A DNA stretch of 64,000 bases, taken from positions 1 through 64,000 of the forward strand of contig JAIPBL010000010.1 of assembly GCA_021739645.1 (NCBI GenBank), written 5' to 3'. The notes below the pieces were generated by a model, which did no database searches, had not been told where the DNA came from, and saw nothing but the letters and a program-made list of their open reading frames with translations. The position numbers were made by a program, and so were the translations under genes. Shown here one piece after another: positions 728 through 64,000 of this stretch (positions are counted from its first letter, which is position 1; the number at the start of each line of letters is the position of its first letter). The stretch comes from Saprospiraceae bacterium (GTDB lineage Bacteria; Bacteroidota; Bacteroidia; Chitinophagales; Saprospiraceae).

Positions 728-1390
728 ATGAAAAACAGCAAAGCAATAGACATCGAGCAACTGCTGGCCGAGCGGCCCTTCGAGCTGTTGACTCCAAAGG
801 AAAAAGACGCCGTGCTGGCGCAAATGCCCGAATGGGAATACCAGCGGCTGTACCAATTGGTGACCCGCAGCCGGGCCGCCCTGAAGCGAAGCCCCGCCCC
901 CAACCCAGCCATTCGGGAGCAGTTGATGGCGGCATTGCGGCAGCAACCAAAACCACAAGCTGCCCGGCCCACTGGTCTGCTGGTTCGGCTGGCGCAATAC
1001 CGGCTGCCGGCTTGGCAGGCAGCGGCGGGGCTGGCGCTGCTGCTGGTCGCCCATTTTGGCCTGCAAAAACAACCAACGGCGGACGTGCGGACGGAAACGG
1101 TTTTCGTAAACACAACCGACACCATCTACAAGCAAATGGCCATCCCGGTGTCCGACACCGTTTCAAAAGTGGCGGTCAGCAGGGTCAACGTAAAGCCTAG
1201 AATGGCAAAAAAGGTGGTGCCCGCCAACCTCCCGACCGAGGCACTGGCCGATTCCTCCTCCCGCCACCAAGGCCGTTTCGGCGGCCTCCCCGATACTTTG
1301 CCCGGCTTCCGGCTTACCCTCCAGCACCCCAATGGCCGCTCCGCCAACGAAATGAAGGAGCTTTGGCAGTTCCTGGGAGATGTTTATTGA
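728..1390 (+). CDS. Putative membrane-anchored anti-sigma-like protein
   Basis: A 220-residue protein with a cytoplasmic N-terminal part (about 1-90, charged, helical), one hydrophobic segment at about 95-112 (WQAAAGLALLLVAHFGL) and a polar C-terminal part that would lie in the periplasm. Size, topology and position directly behind an ECF sigma gene match anti-sigma factors of Bacteroidota, but no zinc-binding HxxxCxxC motif is visible, so the role is inferred from context only. It begins with ATG 9 bp after an inverted array and is probably co-transcribed with the sigma gene. Confidence 0.7.
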   Translation: MKNSKAIDIEQLLAERPFELLTPKEKDAVLAQMPEWEYQRLYQLVTRSRAALKRSPAPNPAIREQLMAALRQQPKPQAARPTGLLVRLAQYRLPAWQAAAGLALLLVAHFGLQKQPTADVRTETVFVNTTDTIYKQMAIPVSDTVSKVAVSRVNVKPRMAKKVVPANLPTEALADSSSRHQGRFGGLPDTLPGFRLTLQHPNGRSANEMKELWQFLGDVY

Positions 1391-1479
1391 GTTCGACAGT
1401 TCGACAGTTGGCAGTTGGCAGTCGAGACCGTGGAAATAGTCAACTGACTGCCAACTGCACACTGTCTAACTGCCAACTA
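1391..1479. repeat. Inverted array of 7-bp units (TTGGCAG type)
   Basis: Units of the form TTCGACAG / TTGGCAG at 1391-1424 are mirrored by CAACTGC-type units at 1440-1479. It begins immediately after the TGA stop of the preceding gene. The same TTGGCAG unit recurs at 6349-6362. Confidence 0.75.
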
Positions 1480-1498
1480 AAAAATCCAAACTCTTTTA

Positions 1499-1506
1499 TA
1501 CATTTG
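1499..1506 (+). promoter_or_regulatory. Bacteroidota -7 promoter element (TACATTTG)
   Basis: Matches the TAnnTTTG consensus of the Bacteroidota housekeeping sigma factor. It lies 135 bp before the DUF2723 gene and downstream of the repeat hairpin. No clear TTG -33 element is seen at normal spacing. Confidence 0.35.
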
Positions 1507-1640
1507 CGCAGCTTTTTGGAGGGGCTACCTGCATTTGCCAGTCAATTTGCTTTCGATTTGCAACATTGCCTTGAGTATCAAATATTTACCCATTCAAAAT
1601 CAGGTGGCGCAAGTTTTAATATCCAACCATTTTCACCTAC

Positions 1641-4600
1641 ATGAATTCCTTAAAAACAATAAGTAACATCACCGGCTGGCTCGTTTTCGCCATTGCCGCT
1701 TTCGTTTATTACCAAACTGCCGAACCCACAGGCAGCCTTTGGGACTGTGGTGAGTTCATTCTGGGGGCTTACAAACAAGAGGTCGTTCACCCGCCGGGAG
1801 CACCGTTGTTCCTGTTGATTGGCCGCCTGTTCATCTGGGTCGCCGAGACGTTCAGCGACACGAAGGCTCATCCTGAGAATATTGCATTTGCCGTCAACTT
1901 CATGTCAGGTATTTGCACGGCTTTTGGTGCCATGTTTTTGGCTTGGATTACCATCATTTTGGGCAAAATGACGTTGGTAGGCCGTGATGGTGAAACGGAC
2001 GGCGGACAGAACTTCGCACTGGCCGGTGCTGGCCTGGTGGCTGGTTTGGCCATGACTTTTACTACCTCCGTTTGGTTTTCGGCGGTGGAGGGTGAGGTGT
2101 ACGCCATGTCCACATTTTTCACCTGCCTCACGGCTTGGAGCATGTTGAAGTGGTACAACCTGCCCAACGAACCTAAGCATGACCGCTGGCTGGTTTTCAC
2201 GATTTATGCTGCGGCGTTGTCCATTGGCGTCCACTTGTTGAGCTTGCTCACCTTCCCGGCGCTGGCCATGCTTTACTATTTCAAAAAGGAAATTCAAATC
2301 AGCAAAACAGTTTCGATTTTGCTGCGCATCGGGCTTGCGATTGGCATGTTGGTCATGTTGGTTGTAGTGGCCACCGGCGTAAGTGGCATTTTGATGAAGG
2401 GCCTTGGCTCGCTGCTGGTGTTGGCATTGGCCATTTACCTGCCTTGGAAAACGGAGGACAAATATATTGGCGCATTGGGTGCTTTCGCAATGGGCTTCCT
2501 CACCATCGCTGCCATCCAAAGCCTAGTAATCACAGGCATCGCCAACATGTGGAGCTGGATGGAACTTCAAATGGTGAACGGCTTCGGGATGCCTTTTAAT
2601 TCGGGCTTGGTACCAACGGCTTTGGTACTGATGGCGATATTTTTCTTCGGAATGCGCTATGCCTCCCGGAGGGGAAAAGCTGATTTGATTATACTTTCCT
2701 CCGTAGCAGTCGTTTATGGCTTCTTCGCTTTTGGTTGGATGAACCTCGTTGTTTCGCCAGTGGCGGCACTCATTTTTTATGTTGGGCTTCGCAATGCAGA
2801 CCGTCACTTGGTGCAGGTGCTGATTTTTAGCGCGCTGATGGCCGTGGTCGGCTTTTCCACTATTGGTGTGGTGCTGGTTCGCGCCAGTGTTGACCCACCC
2901 ATCAACATGAACGACCCCAGTGACCCCATCCGGTTGTTGAGCTACGTAAACCGGGAACAGTACGGGGAGCGCCCGTTGCTCTACGGCACTGACTTTGACG
3001 CCGACCCCGTTGACAACGAAATAACGCCTCGCTACGGACAGGTTGTGAAAATGGTAGATGGCAAGGAAGTCCACAGTTACGAAGTTACCGACGAAAAAGT
3101 ATCCTACAAGTTCAAGCCAGAGGACAAACACTTGTTCCCCCGCATGGGAGATGACTCCCAAAGCCGCCCCGAAAAATACAGGGCTTGGGTGGACAAGCCC
3201 ACTGGCCGCATTACCTTTAGCGACAACATGACTTATTTGTTCCGCTATCAGTTTAGCTGGATGTATTGGCGCTATTTCGCATGGAATTTTATTGGTCGCC
3301 AAAACGCAGAACAGGGCTACTACTCTTGGGATGTGAAGAGTGGAAACTGGGAAAGCGGCATCGGTTTTATCGATGACATGCGCCTGTACAAGTCTCGGAA
3401 CGTGCCCGATTCCATCAAAAACGACCTGTCCAAAAACCACTATTTTTTCATTCCAATGATTTTTGGTCTGCTTGGGTTGCTCTTCCATTTTTTCAGGAAA
3501 CCAGAAGACGCAATGGCCATCATGGCCATGTTCCTGATAACGGGCCTCGGCATCATCATTTACTCCAACCAACCGCCCAACGAGCCGCGTGAACGGGACT
3601 ACGTTTTGGTTGGTTCGTTCGTCATATTCTGCATTTGGATAGGGATGGGCGTGCTGGCCATTTACCATTTCCTCAAAGATAAAATCGGGGGAATGGGCGC
3701 CGCAGGCTTGGGAACCGTACTGGTGCTTTCCGCTCCCTACCTCATGGGCAGTCAAAACTGGGACGACCACAGCCGTGCCGGCCATTACGCCTCAAGGGAC
3801 TATGCCTCCAACTTCCTGAACAGTTGTCAGCCAAACGCCATCATTTTCACTTATGGTGACAATGATACTTACCCGCTCTGGTACGCCCAAGAGGTGGAAG
3901 GCATTCGCAGGGATATCCGGGTGGTGAACCTTTCACTCATCCAGGTGGATTGGTACATCAACTTGTTGCGGCGCAAAATCAACGACTCACCGCCCATAAA
4001 ACTGACCATTCCGGCTGATGCTTACCGTGGGAAAAAACGAAATGCCGTTTACTACCTCGGCAACCAAGACCAAGGTGAAATGACCGCCCTGCAAGCACTG
4101 GAATTGACGGGTGTTGACAAAAAGTCGAAGGATAGAGTAGATGCCATTTTCCCCTCTGGCAATATTTACATCCCAATCGACGTGTCCAAAGCAGGTGAAA
4201 TTTTTGGCATCAACCCCGGTGACAGCTTGGCATTGACGGAAAGGATTCCTTTGAAAATGCCGTTTCATAAAACCGGCAACAAGGACTTGTCCTACCTGAC
4301 GAAAGACGAACTGGCAGTGCTGGACGTCGTTGCCTCCAACATCAACGACCGCCCAGTATATTTTGCCGTCACCTGCCGCCCTGACAAAATGTTGGGCTTA
4401 GAAGACTACATGCAATTGGAGGGCCTTGGCCTTCGAGTCACCCCCATCAAGTCGCAGAGCGAGCAGGGATTGTATGTGTACGGCTATGGCCGGGTGAACA
4501 CTGACCTGCTGTACGACAACGTGATGAACAAGTACAAATGGGGCAATTTCGACACGCACCCCACCTTTATTGACCGGAGCTACGGCCCTAGTATCCAGAG

Positions 4601-14790: not shown

Positions 14791-14864
14791 GGCTCCGTGG
14801 CTTAATTGGATAGAGCACCTGACTACGGATCAGGAGGTTAAAGGTTCGAGTCCTTTCGGAGTCA
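14791..14864 (+). tRNA. tRNA-Arg (anticodon ACG)
   Basis: A complete 74-nt cloverleaf. The acceptor GGCTCCG (14791-14797) pairs with CGGAGTC (14857-14863, one G-U), the discriminator is A, and the anticodon stem CCTGA/TCAGG encloses the loop CTACGGA with anticodon ACG. The T arm AAAGG-TTCGAGT-CCTTT is standard. CCA is not encoded. It stands in front of rpmB as in many Bacteroidota genomes. Confidence 0.97.
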
Positions 14865-61274: not shown

Positions 61275-61426
61275 GTTGTTTTTTGTTTTGAAATATTGGC
61301 GTGAAGGTAAAAAAATCCAAACGCCATCCCCCTGCTTCACTTTTGAAAAAATTCCTTCCCAGCATTAAAACAATCCAACGATGTTCGCAATCCTTAACAG
61401 AAAGCAAAACCTTGCAACGCTTGGCT

Positions 61427-61434
61427 TACCTTTG
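61427..61434 (+). promoter_or_regulatory. -7 promoter element (TACCTTTG) of the LptF/G-like gene
   Basis: TAnnTTTG match 31 bp upstream of the chosen GTG start, in the divergent gap opposite fabG. Confidence 0.5.
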
Positions 61435-61465
61435 CGTTTTGCTTAAAAAAACGATTTTATTGGTC

Positions 61466-63178
61466 GTGAAAAAGTTAGACAAACTCCTAATTACGTCATT
61501 TGTACCGCCGTTCATCGTGACGTTTTTCATCGCACTCTTCGTGTTTGTGATGCAAACGCTGTGGCTGTACATTGACGACATTGCGGGAAAAGGCGTTGGC
61601 TTTTTCCTACTAACGGAGCTGGTCGGTTACCTGTCCGTGAGCATGATTCCGTTATCGCTACCTGTGGCAGTGCTCATTTCATCGGTGATGGTTCTGGGGA
61701 ACTTGGCAGAGCGATATGAGCTATCGAGTATGAAGTCGGCAGGGGTCTCGCTCTGGCGAACCATGCGGCCTTTGATGGTTATAACGGGCTTAATAGGCGT
61801 TTTCTCCTTTTTTTGTTCCAATTATTTCATCCCCGTTTCCAACCTAAAATTCAAGTCTCGCCTTTACGATATCCGGCAGCAGAAGCCTGCCCTGAGCCTG
61901 GAAGAAAGCCTGTTCAACCAAGATTTCCAAGGCTTCTCCATTCGCATTGGTGACAAACTGCCCGACAACAGTACCATCAAGGACGTGCTGCTCTACGACA
62001 ACGCTGAGGCCAGCCAATCCCGCCTATCCATGGTAGCAGCCGACAGTGGTAGGATGTACGGCTCCGAAGACCATAAGTACTTCGTGATGCAACTCTACGA
62101 CGGCCAACAAATCTCAGAACCAAAACCCATCACCAAAGGGGGGAAGCGCACTTTTCCGATGATGCGTTCTACTTTTCAATCATGGACGAAAGTCTTCGAC
62201 CTCGACCAGTTCGAGCTTGACAGAACAGACGAAAACCTCTTCAAGTCGCACCACACGATGTTGAGCAACCGCCAACTGTTGGTCGCCATCGATTCGATTG
62301 ACAAGGAGATTTTGGAAAAATCCCAACGGATGGCGGAAAGCAACACCCGGCATTTTTTCTTTCTCAACAAAATGGTGCAAGAAAAAAACAAAGAAAAACT
62401 GAAGCTGGAGGCAGAAGAAAAACGGGCAAAAACGGACTCGTTGAACATGTCCAAAAAGGAACCCGAAACTGTCAAAATGGATCCTCCAGAAGAAGCCAAA
62501 CCAGACTCAATTGCAATAAAAAAGCCGACCACCAAACAAATCGCAGAGACGCCAAGGGTCCCAAGGATCAAACCAAAAAAATCTACCACTCCACCCACCC
62601 CCCAGTCTAAGGTGAAAACAGCAGCACCCACCCCCGACCCACCCGAAAAAAAAGAGGAGCCAGGCTTCAAGCAGGTGTTGGACAAGCCACTCGGCCAGTA
62701 CACTTCCCTCCTAGAAACCTTCGAAATCAATCGCCGGAGGGAGTTGCTGGACAAAGCCAAAAGCCCGATTCACCTGATTCAGGACCAAGCCGAAACGACA
62801 CTTCGCTCGCTTGAAAAAACCAAGGAATCCAGGGTAAAGCACGTCTTTGAGTTCCACGCAAAGTTTAGTTTGGCAATGGCCTGCTTGATATTTTTGTTTG
62901 TCGGAGCACCGATGGGTGCCATTGTGCGAAAGGGCGGGTTCGGTTGGCCGCTATTGATTTCCATCGTATTCTTCATGCTGTTCATCGTCATCGGCATTTT
63001 CAGCAAAAACATTGCGGAGCGCTTCGTGATTGACGCTGTAACCGCCGCTTGGATGAACTGCCTAGTCGTATTCCCGATGGGACTAATCCTCACCTACTGG
63101 GCCATGCGAGACATGGGCGTGGGGCAAATAGCAGAGTTTTTCAGCTTCAAATGGCTTTTCAAACGTCGAAGGCCATAG
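61466..63178 (+). CDS. LptF/LptG family (YjgP/YjgQ) lipopolysaccharide-export permease
   Basis: A 570-residue inner-membrane permease that works with LptB to extract LPS. The N-terminal helices (FVPPFIVTFFIALFVFVMQT, LVGYLSVSMIPLSLPVAVLI) and the domain with LAERYELSSMKSAGVSLWR are family hallmarks; the C-terminal helices (FHAKFSLAMACLIFLFVGAP, GAIVRKGGFGWP) complete it. Between them lies a periplasmic domain with an insert of about 120 residues rich in lysine, proline and glutamate (about 300-420). GTG at 61466 was chosen; TTG 61460 is possible. It ends at a strong terminator. Confidence 0.9.
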   Translation: MKKLDKLLITSFVPPFIVTFFIALFVFVMQTLWLYIDDIAGKGVGFFLLTELVGYLSVSMIPLSLPVAVLISSVMVLGNLAERYELSSMKSAGVSLWRTMRPLMVITGLIGVFSFFCSNYFIPVSNLKFKSRLYDIRQQKPALSLEESLFNQDFQGFSIRIGDKLPDNSTIKDVLLYDNAEASQSRLSMVAADSGRMYGSEDHKYFVMQLYDGQQISEPKPITKGGKRTFPMMRSTFQSWTKVFDLDQFELDRTDENLFKSHHTMLSNRQLLVAIDSIDKEILEKSQRMAESNTRHFFFLNKMVQEKNKEKLKLEAEEKRAKTDSLNMSKKEPETVKMDPPEEAKPDSIAIKKPTTKQIAETPRVPRIKPKKSTTPPTPQSKVKTAAPTPDPPEKKEEPGFKQVLDKPLGQYTSLLETFEINRRRELLDKAKSPIHLIQDQAETTLRSLEKTKESRVKHVFEFHAKFSLAMACLIFLFVGAPMGAIVRKGGFGWPLLISIVFFMLFIVIGIFSKNIAERFVIDAVTAAWMNCLVVFPMGLILTYWAMRDMGVGQIAEFFSFKWLFKRRRP

Positions 63179-63274: not shown

Positions 63275-63699
63275 GTGACCCAGCCTGGACTCGAACCAGG
63301 GACCCTCTGCTTAGCTTACCCGCTACGGCTTTCGCCGCCCCCGATTTCTCGGGGTTTGTGGTCTGGACTATATCTTCACCATTTCAGGTGCAGTGCGTAT
63401 AGTCTCTACGGAACCTCCCTATAATCATCCGCCAAGTGAATCTTAGCGAATTGATTATTCTTCGGCGTCCTTACCCTAAAGCTGAGTTCCAGCCAAAGCC
63501 TTCAAGACACCTAAATCGCCTTTGGTTTTTGTATGATGCTCTCTCATCAAGCAAAAATACAAAACGATAGAAAGTTTCCTCGGTATTGCCATTTTAAAGG
63601 TTTCACCGAAATAGCACTGTCCACTCGATGCGTTTCTGTTTTCGCATCGAGGCTCCTATTACTTAAAGGCAGATGCTCTATCCACTGAGCTACAGGGCC
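63275..63699 (-). tRNA. tRNA-Arg (anticodon UCU), split by a group I intron
   Basis: The 5' exon 63699-63666 (34 nt) and 3' exon 63314-63275 (40 nt) give a standard 74-nt tRNA. Acceptor GGCCCTG pairs with CTGGGTC (two G-U), discriminator A. The D arm is GCTC/GAGC, the anticodon stem TCTGC/GCAGA and the T arm CCTGG-TTCGAGT-CCAGG. The joined anticodon loop CTT-CTAA has anticodon UCU. A tRNA scanner that does not handle introns would miss it, as the two halves are 351 nt apart. CCA is not encoded. Confidence 0.92.
63315..63665 (-). ncRNA. Group I self-splicing intron (IC3-like) in the tRNA-Arg anticodon loop
   Basis: A 351-nt intron between anticodon bases U34 and C35. The core helices appear in the canonical order: P2 (63650-63643 with 63632-63625), P3 CAGTGC/GCACTG (63619-63614, 63396-63391), P4 CGGT/ACCG (63608-63605, 63584-63581), P7 GACTATA/TATAGTC (63404-63398, 63372-63366) and P8 CACC/GGTG (63390-63387, 63380-63377). 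P9 and P9.1 are capped by GAAA loops (63354-63326). A guide UAGGAG (63658-63653) pairs with exon ends CUU and CUA, putting U34 opposite G. The last base is G. No ORF is inside. Confidence 0.92.
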
Positions 63700-63881: not shown

Positions 63882-64000
63882 ATGAGCGTAAAAATCGAGG
63901 AAAGCTGGAAAGTCGCATTGGCAACTGAGTTTGCACAGCCATATTTTCAAGGCATCACGGCTTTTTTGAAAAAGGAGCTTACCAGTGGCAAAACCATTTT
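63882..64000 (+). CDS. ung: Uracil-DNA glycosylase (partial, cut by window end)
   Basis: The first 39 codons are present. SVKIEESWKVALATEF, then FQGITAFLKKELTSGKTIF match the N-terminus of family 1 uracil-DNA glycosylase, which removes uracil from DNA at the start of base-excision repair. The catalytic motifs lie outside the window. ATG at 63882 is well supported by the conserved start. Confidence 0.85.
   Translation, partial: MSVKIEESWKVALATEFAQPYFQGITAFLKKELTSGKTI

Follow-up and report, generated by a model that had tools for sequence, protein, structure and literature searches.

A group I intron with a homing endonuclease gene remnant in the anticodon loop of a Saprospiraceae tRNA-Arg(UCU) gene

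The cyanobacterial tRNA-Leu(UAA) intron, which belongs to subgroup IC3, lies between U34 and A35, and group I introns also interrupt the tRNA-Arg(CCU) genes of proteobacteria; the homing genes associated with such elements pass through a cycle of gain, decay and loss. In those sections of the published accounts that concern this subject, cyanobacteria and alpha- and betaproteobacteria are named as carriers of group I tRNA introns (PMC4033280), Ile2 introns are described from Acidovorax and Burkholderia and, together with the fMet ones, are stated to be missed by tRNAscan-SE (PMC8450103), and group I introns are reported in the tmRNA of Saprospiraceae (PMC11915505). Among the matches listed in the open-access literature, there was no report of a group I intron in tRNA-Arg(UCU) or in any tRNA of Bacteroidota.

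The DNA analyzed in this work (“the window”) is a whole stretch of 64,000 nucleotides from a member of the Saprospiraceae, and it was confirmed to contain, on the minus strand at positions 63275-63699, a tRNA-Arg(UCU) gene that a group I intron of 351 nt interrupts between U34 and C35 (Table 1). The original prediction, made from the letters alone, had proposed a group I intron, its site at U34/C35, its guide, its terminal G and its host tRNA, and it was right on nearly every point. Indeed, the two tRNA halves, 351 nt apart, and the identity of the host are borne out both by intact orthologs and by ARAGORN, which, when introns are allowed, predicts at these positions a tRNA-Arg(tct) with an intron after position 34; the junction bases, read directly, leave U34|C35 as the single possible boundary. 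The “perfect cloverleaf” attributed to the joined exons did not hold, since their acceptor stem has U6 opposite U67. The same mismatch occurs in the intact genes of two genomes of the same genus (G008 and G013) and, therefore, it is not a decay caused by the intron. The expectation that automatic annotation would overlook the gene proved correct: ARAGORN run by default, that is, without introns, reports in the window only a tRNA-Arg(acg) at 14791 and skips the split tRNA, and the match to the Rfam model RF00028 stays below its gathering score, so that to a default tRNA finder and the Rfam cut-off intron-bearing genomes look as if they had no AGA-reading tRNA. Since ARAGORN with introns allowed assigns wrong labels in places (the Arg gene of G009 as ccg, an fMet gene of G019 as Leu caa), isotypes were taken from the exon sequences.

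Table 1. Positions of the tRNA-Arg(UCU) gene, of the parts of its intron and of the adjoining genes in the window, and of interrupted tRNA genes in phage records
Feature	Position	Strand	Remarks
tRNA-Arg(UCU) 5' exon	63666..63699	minus	34 nt, last base U34; ARAGORN with introns, intact orthologs
Group I intron	63315..63665	minus	351 nt, terminal G
tRNA-Arg(UCU) 3' exon	63275..63314	minus	40 nt, first base C35; ARAGORN with introns, intact orthologs
Internal guide UAGGAG	63653..63658	minus	UAG with 3' exon CUA = P10; GAG with 5' exon CUU = P1, U34.G
P2	63624..63651	minus	9 bp; double changes in 8/9 pairs
P3 5' strand CAGUGC	63614..63619	minus	double changes in 5/6 pairs; 100% of cells paired
P4 (63609-63605 with 63584-63580) around P5	63580..63609	minus	double changes in 2/5 pairs of P4 and 1/2 of P5
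P6 (63579-63577 with 63412-63410)	63410..63579	minus	loop with endonuclease remnant; double changes in 0/3 pairs; 100% paired
Endonuclease remnant, 5' end of gene	63476..63547	minus	23 codons, then stop; tblastn residues 1-19, 84%, E 1.4e-6
275-bp deletion point (within a few bases)	63488..63489	minus	aligned to G009 intron
Endonuclease remnant, 3' end of gene	63406..63483	minus	stop UAG in J6/7; tblastn residues 112-138, 74%, E 4e-10
P7 (63404-63400 with 63370-63366)	63366..63404	minus	expected guanosine-binding site; encloses P3 3' strand and P8
P3 3' strand; P8	63396-63391; 63390-63377	minus	both inside P7
P9.0 (63362-63360 with 63320-63318) and P9 (63354-63339)	63318..63362	minus	fold and covariation
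P9.1, GAAA loop	63337-63326	minus	fold and covariation
LptF/LptG permease gene	61301..63178	plus	locus marker adjoining the tRNA; PF03739 E 1.3e-66
Uracil-DNA glycosylase gene, start	63882..64000	plus	locus marker, runs beyond the window; PF03167 E 1.4e-14 on L251
Interrupted phage tRNAs, L381 (LR756508.1 5000-20000)	7081-7349; 7480-7731		group I-type, anticodon loop
Interrupted phage tRNA, L253 (LR745208.1)	1357-1643		group I-type, anticodon loop

The helices P1, P2, P3, P4, P5, P6, P7, P8, P9.0, P9, P9.1 and P10 can all be drawn on the window. Their fold was compared across 26 tRNA-Arg(UCU) introns, that is, the one of the window and 25 picked by hand out of 54 parsed ones, mostly short but including the long one of G009. 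Standard pairs occupy 98.0% of the 1,326 cells and double changes occur in 26 of the 51 pairs; the covariation score of 0.424 compares with 0.058 at the most when the partners are slid and with an average of 0.128 upon shuffling. A fold drawn from the window is favored over its slid versions as far as cells paired are concerned, and the double changes found in the relatives are, thus, the stronger sign. The canonical order of P3, P4, P7, P8, P9 and P9.1, as originally traced, is supported by these changes (P3, 5/6 pairs; P7, 2/5 pairs, with 99.2% of cells paired). When P7-P9.1 alone was considered in 30 introns, including those of Leu and fMet hosts, 99.0% of the cells were paired, 13 of 20 pairs showed double changes and the covariation score reached 0.446 (at most 0.064 for slid partners). 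The proposed guide, aligning both exon ends and placing U34 opposite G, agrees with the finding that all three P1 pairs form in 26 of 26 rows; as it never varies, the 3-bp P1 is beyond a test by covariation. The three pairs of P10 form in 26, 22 and 12 of the 26 rows. The terminal G of the intron is seen directly in the window, and in the relatives both this G and the last-exon U are set by the search pattern or by the parser.

A match to RF00028 had been put forward as a check of the original prediction, and its outcome is mixed. The model does match positions 63718-63338 of the minus strand (36.5 bits, E 1.9e-7 in 1,101 bases), and at the gathering score of 50 the intron is absent from the listing for the 64-kb window. 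The relatives fail as well: none of the eight loci tested (seven relatives and the window's contig) reaches the gathering score, for which reason RF00028 at this setting was rejected as a detector of the family, and at E 0.01 two of seven loci (the window's contig and L086) are detected. As most of these loci are missed, the general model fits the family poorly; the gathering cut-off is a threshold of the database and represents no biological criterion.

The intron also harbors a feature absent from the original prediction, namely the remnant of a homing endonuclease gene. A complete counterpart exists in the 626-nt intron of G009, whose P6 loop contains an open frame of 138 codons ending with a stop codon in J6/7. 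The 138-aa protein matches PF11645 (E 1.6e-33) and, over residues 5-135, PDB 2OST (E 4e-4), which we take to be I-Ssp6803I from the Synechocystis tRNA-fMet intron; its catalytic residues, as read in the sequence, follow the motif D...(Q/E)xK. The G009 enzyme thus possesses the PD-(D/E)XK features of PF11645, and in the window the relevant part is deleted. Nor is the frame intact, as competence for homing would demand, because 275 bp are missing between the stretches that match residues 1-19 and 112-138 of the G009 protein, and the shifted frame stops after 23 codons. As judged from the alignment of the two introns, one frame-breaking deletion of 275 bp explains the decay and would have ruined the gene while sparing those ends that double as the ribozyme core. 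According to this scheme, the intron would have arrived as a homing element whose P6 loop carried a gene for a PD-(D/E)XK endonuclease; since the deletion killed the gene and spared the core, it should still splice and should no longer move by means of its own enzyme.

This finding can be placed in a wider frame. When 67 distinct Arg(UCU) introns were considered (54 parsed from the exact-pattern search and 13 from the cloverleaf solver, with identical and unsolved introns omitted), 20 were seen to have an endonuclease frame open over its full length (16 by rule and four with matches over residues 1-138 and open frames), six, the window included, have a remnant and 41 have no match. The window thus represents the decay stage of the gain, decay and loss cycle. 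Other hosts carry endonuclease genes as well. Four tRNA-fMet introns (L161, L165, L199 and L224; 646-666 nt, cut at U33|C34) show distant PD-(D/E)XK matches, 24-27% identical along most of the protein, and two tRNA-Leu(UAA) introns, 721 and 725 nt long (L072 in G006 and L073 in G019) embed HNH endonuclease genes, with PF01844 above the cut-off in the former and PF13392, E 3.5e-5, just below it in the latter.

The comparison with genomes of the same genus revealed an exact empty site. The tRNA-Arg(UCU) gene is uninterrupted in 10 of the 13 relatives searched, it is interrupted in G009 and two gave no match. In two of the 12 loci compared, those of G008 (L036) and G013 (L035), the intact gene is identical to the joined exons of the window over 74 of 74 nt. 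Four loci (L035, L036, L038 and L039) align on both sides of the tRNA and skip the intron, the alignments stopping at window position 63314 and restarting at 63662 or, for L039, at 63659; an lptF/G-like gene is present at all four. In each of the 11 same-genus genomes that yielded the tRNA, 10 of them with an empty site and one, G009, with an interrupted gene, a uracil-DNA glycosylase gene lies next to that tRNA, which places the G009 intron at the same locus as that of the window. The survey of related genomes that the original prediction had called for, therefore, retrieved the same insertion in G009 and, as reported below, across Bacteroidota and Gammaproteobacteria, so that it is not peculiar to the window. 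These data bear on the idea that the insertion might be an assembly error or come from a contaminating contig. The source genome (G000, with the window on contig C110) is, in fact, a draft of 147 contigs, 99.68% complete, with 3.33% contamination; however, the sequences that flank the tRNA on its two sides both align to loci of the same genus, and the same insertion recurs in many other assemblies, named strains among them, so that we consider an artifact extremely improbable.

A further question concerns the need for splicing. If the source genome possessed an intact second tRNA-Arg(UCU) gene, the split copy might be dead, a refutation that the original prediction itself had named. None of the anticodons assigned to the 37 tRNA matches of G000 is TCT, those for arginine including ACG, CCT and CCG; this list, for which 150 of 282 candidates were scored, contains no tRNA-Ile and is, therefore, incomplete. 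Sequence searches independent of it, with the window gene and the intact 74-nt gene as queries, retrieved from the draft nothing but the two halves and tRNAs of other kinds, and the gene is thus not made dispensable by any duplicate found there. Since the draft, 99.7% complete, gave no second UCU gene, the reading of AGA in this bacterium presumably depends on the splicing of the intron. AGA is the rarest arginine codon of the window (36 of the 657 arginine codons counted), and its 36 occurrences are spread over 21 of the 36 long ORFs. The same picture emerges from a family-wide sample of 298 genomes, 57 of which match the intron model. At least 21 of these were assigned to tRNA-Arg(UCU) (15 by the solver, five by exon 2 and one with exon 2 masked), a lower bound because some matches have no tRNA assignment. 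The uninterrupted UCU anticodon-arm pattern is found in none of the 21 versus 189 of all 298 (hypergeometric P 1.8e-10); the strict pattern is also absent from 88 of the other 277 genomes, and a missing match alone is, therefore, no proof of an intron.

On this basis, it is possible to weigh the idea that the gene is dead, i.e., that splicing has been lost and AGA codons are left to a different tRNA or go almost unread. The decay of the endonuclease gene inside the intron and the rarity of AGA would be in agreement with it, but the exons are unchanged with respect to two intact orthologs, the core helices are intact, no other UCU gene was found in the genome and more than half of the long ORFs use the codon; a dead gene is, in our opinion, very unlikely. 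The group I tRNA intron of the window is, instead, real and probably active. In such an active intron, the ribozyme, which separates the first base of the anticodon from the second, would pair its guide, in the precursor, with the three terminal bases of exon 1 (P1, with the U34.G pair) and with the three initial bases of exon 2 (P10); a guanosine bound in P7 would attack after U34, the freed U34 would then attack behind the terminal G, and the joining of the exons would yield a normal tRNA-Arg(UCU). The ribozyme might require a host protein, or might splice conditionally, in such a way that the intron controls how much tRNA-Arg(UCU) is available. Some group I introns do need the help of proteins, according to the pertinent part of a review (Hausner 2014, PMC3984707), and the split gene decodes a rare codon; no sign of a switch came to attention, and the uninterrupted state of the gene in 10 of 13 same-genus relatives speaks, instead, against this reading, which we regard as very improbable. 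What we hold with high confidence is that a working intron resides in the sole UCU gene found, that it derives from a homing element and that its endonuclease was lost by one deletion: it is from the anatomy, the covariation, the exact empty site, the remnant and the search for a second UCU gene that we infer splicing, past homing and present immobility.

The distribution of these introns is wide. An exact pattern combining the intron 3' end with CUAA, which fixes the 3' side only, the 5' half being located independently, retrieved 60 contigs from the GTDB r220 species genomes. Fifty-four of them parse as tRNA-Arg(UCU) cut at U34|C35; the remaining six share exon 2 and are unparsed, four because of the T-loop rule and two with one half outside the locus. 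Carriers belong to the Gammaproteobacteria (including Thiohalophilus, Thioalkalivibrio, Wenzhouxiangella and Woeseiaceae) and to the Bacteroidota (including Flavilitoribacter, Lewinella and Phaeodactylibacter), with one Rhodothermales MAG and one MAG labelled Rhodobacter in addition. Flavilitoribacter nigricans DSM 23189 (L113) is a carrier available in culture, and Wenzhouxiangella limi has an intact endonuclease. Some Arg(UCU) introns (L154, L156, L151 and L170) end with ACG or ATG, not AAG, before the exon, and the exact AAG-type pattern, therefore, undercounts. In a phylum sample the model matched 28 of 395 genomes. Related introns have other tRNAs as hosts: tRNA-Leu(UAA), where 28 of the 31 solved loci were read as cut at U34|A35, and tRNA-fMet, where the cut falls at U33|C34. 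For 48 of 122 loci the solver gave no solution, some of these being later read by exon 2, and its wrong-looking parses of L197, L198 and L211 were dropped by score.

The analysis of a tree of 111 introns revealed a branch (100/100, length 0.84) that splits the Leu/fMet type from the Arg type, one long-branched Arg row excepted, and sets 45 rows (44 Leu/fMet and this Arg row) apart from the rest. The Pseudomonadota Arg introns require three label changes on this unrooted tree, a pattern that would fit a small number of transfers between phyla. In the same tree L171, a long-branch relative from another family, falls nearer to the window than G009 does. The identity values contradict this placing, since BLAST gives 83/82% to G009 versus 78/72% to L171 (and identity to the window is 84% for L078), and for this reason we claim no inter-family transfer from it. 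A search of plasmids gave partial matches only, in six records. By eye, a Leu(UAA) intron could be read in a Bradyrhizobium plasmid typed as conjugative (L254, CP094621) and, in a Tritonibacter plasmid (L255, NZ_CP015231), a Thr(UGU) intron located at 36/37.

Phages deserve separate consideration. According to the relevant section of a review, the phage group I introns known in 2014 all lay in protein genes (Hausner 2014, PMC3984707); the word intron does not appear in the main text of a survey of huge phages (PMC7162821), and the passages on group I introns in a survey of crAss-like phages place them in protein genes (PMC7886860). Nevertheless, in a phage record of 484 kb ARAGORN detects split genes for tRNA-Lys(UUU) and tRNA-Arg(UCU), and in another of 485 kb one for tRNA-Ile(UAU) (Table 1), and the P7 pattern matched at least 120 viral contigs of IMG/VR, whose contigs are themselves predictions. 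In 79 IMG/VR loci (L262-L340) the cloverleaf score was at least 22 at 48 sites, weaker at three and nil at 28. The 51 resolved interrupted tRNAs, which are not independent because several repeat the same tRNA, comprise 28 Leu(UAA) and five Arg(UCU), the rest including Lys, Thr, Asn and the anticodon UCA. When 10 viral introns were placed in a tree (from which four long rows, L195_Arg, L189_Arg, L200_Leu and L175_Leu, were omitted), eight of them, from Arg(UCU), Lys(UUU) and Ile(UAU), fell inside the bacterial Arg clade with a support of 77 and several long branches.

Some viral loci exhibit peculiar arrangements. In L332 (10466-12420), a predicted prophage, the end of an integrase gene is separated by 141 bp from a tRNA-Arg(UCU) gene that bears an intron; the split tRNA may be a host gene at the prophage end and, possibly, the attachment site. 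Two viral tRNA-Arg(UCU) genes (L136, 4113-4406, and L137, 5772-6048) seem to have a Leu-type core, as judged by eye and from a position outside the Arg clade, and would record a retargeting between tRNAs. Three viral contigs (L313, L326 and L340, the tRNA of the first being the same as that of the last) carry interrupted tRNAs with the anticodon UCA, which would read UGA; it is possible that they are suppressor tRNAs made only after splicing.

Intron-bearing phage tRNA genes would point to a vehicle, contrary to what that section of the 2014 review states (PMC3984707). On these grounds one can speculate, with more doubt than conviction, that the window is a decaying copy of an undescribed family of tRNA anticodon-loop introns extending across phyla, which would be carried from one phylum to another by phage tRNA genes and would be retargeted from tRNA to tRNA through changes of guide and endonuclease. 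In any case, natural copies with a full, a remnant or no endonuclease gene, together with identical empty sites at this very locus in the same genus, make this family a test bed for the invasion, decay and persistence of a homing intron in a gene that its host presumably cannot lose.

Comparing the window with the systems described so far, the likeness of its intron to the tRNA introns of subgroup IC3 concerns the insertion site and the overall look only. The cyanobacterial Leu(UAA) intron resides in another tRNA, and the Leu(UAA) relatives found in Bacteroidota are of a type separate from that of the Arg introns. The Synechocystis tRNA-fMet intron with I-Ssp6803I resembles this family through the match of the G009 endonuclease to PF11645 and PDB 2OST, whereas the window differs from it in having tRNA-Arg(UCU) as the host and only a remnant of the endonuclease. 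The proteobacterial introns of tRNA-Ile(CAU) and tRNA-Arg(CCU) are alike, judged by their description, in being group I introns in a tRNA; their anticodons differ from that of the window, and Arg(CCU) is also another isoacceptor. The Saprospiraceae tmRNA introns are likewise of group I, in a tRNA-like RNA and in the same bacterial family; however, as far as the text devoted to them indicates, they lie in the T-loop, and LAGLIDADG genes were sought and found in them (PMC11915505), whereas the intron of the window lies in the anticodon loop and contains a PD-(D/E)XK remnant. The intron is thus of a known kind, and its host tRNA, its phylum, its endonuclease remnant and the breadth of its relatives appear to be new.
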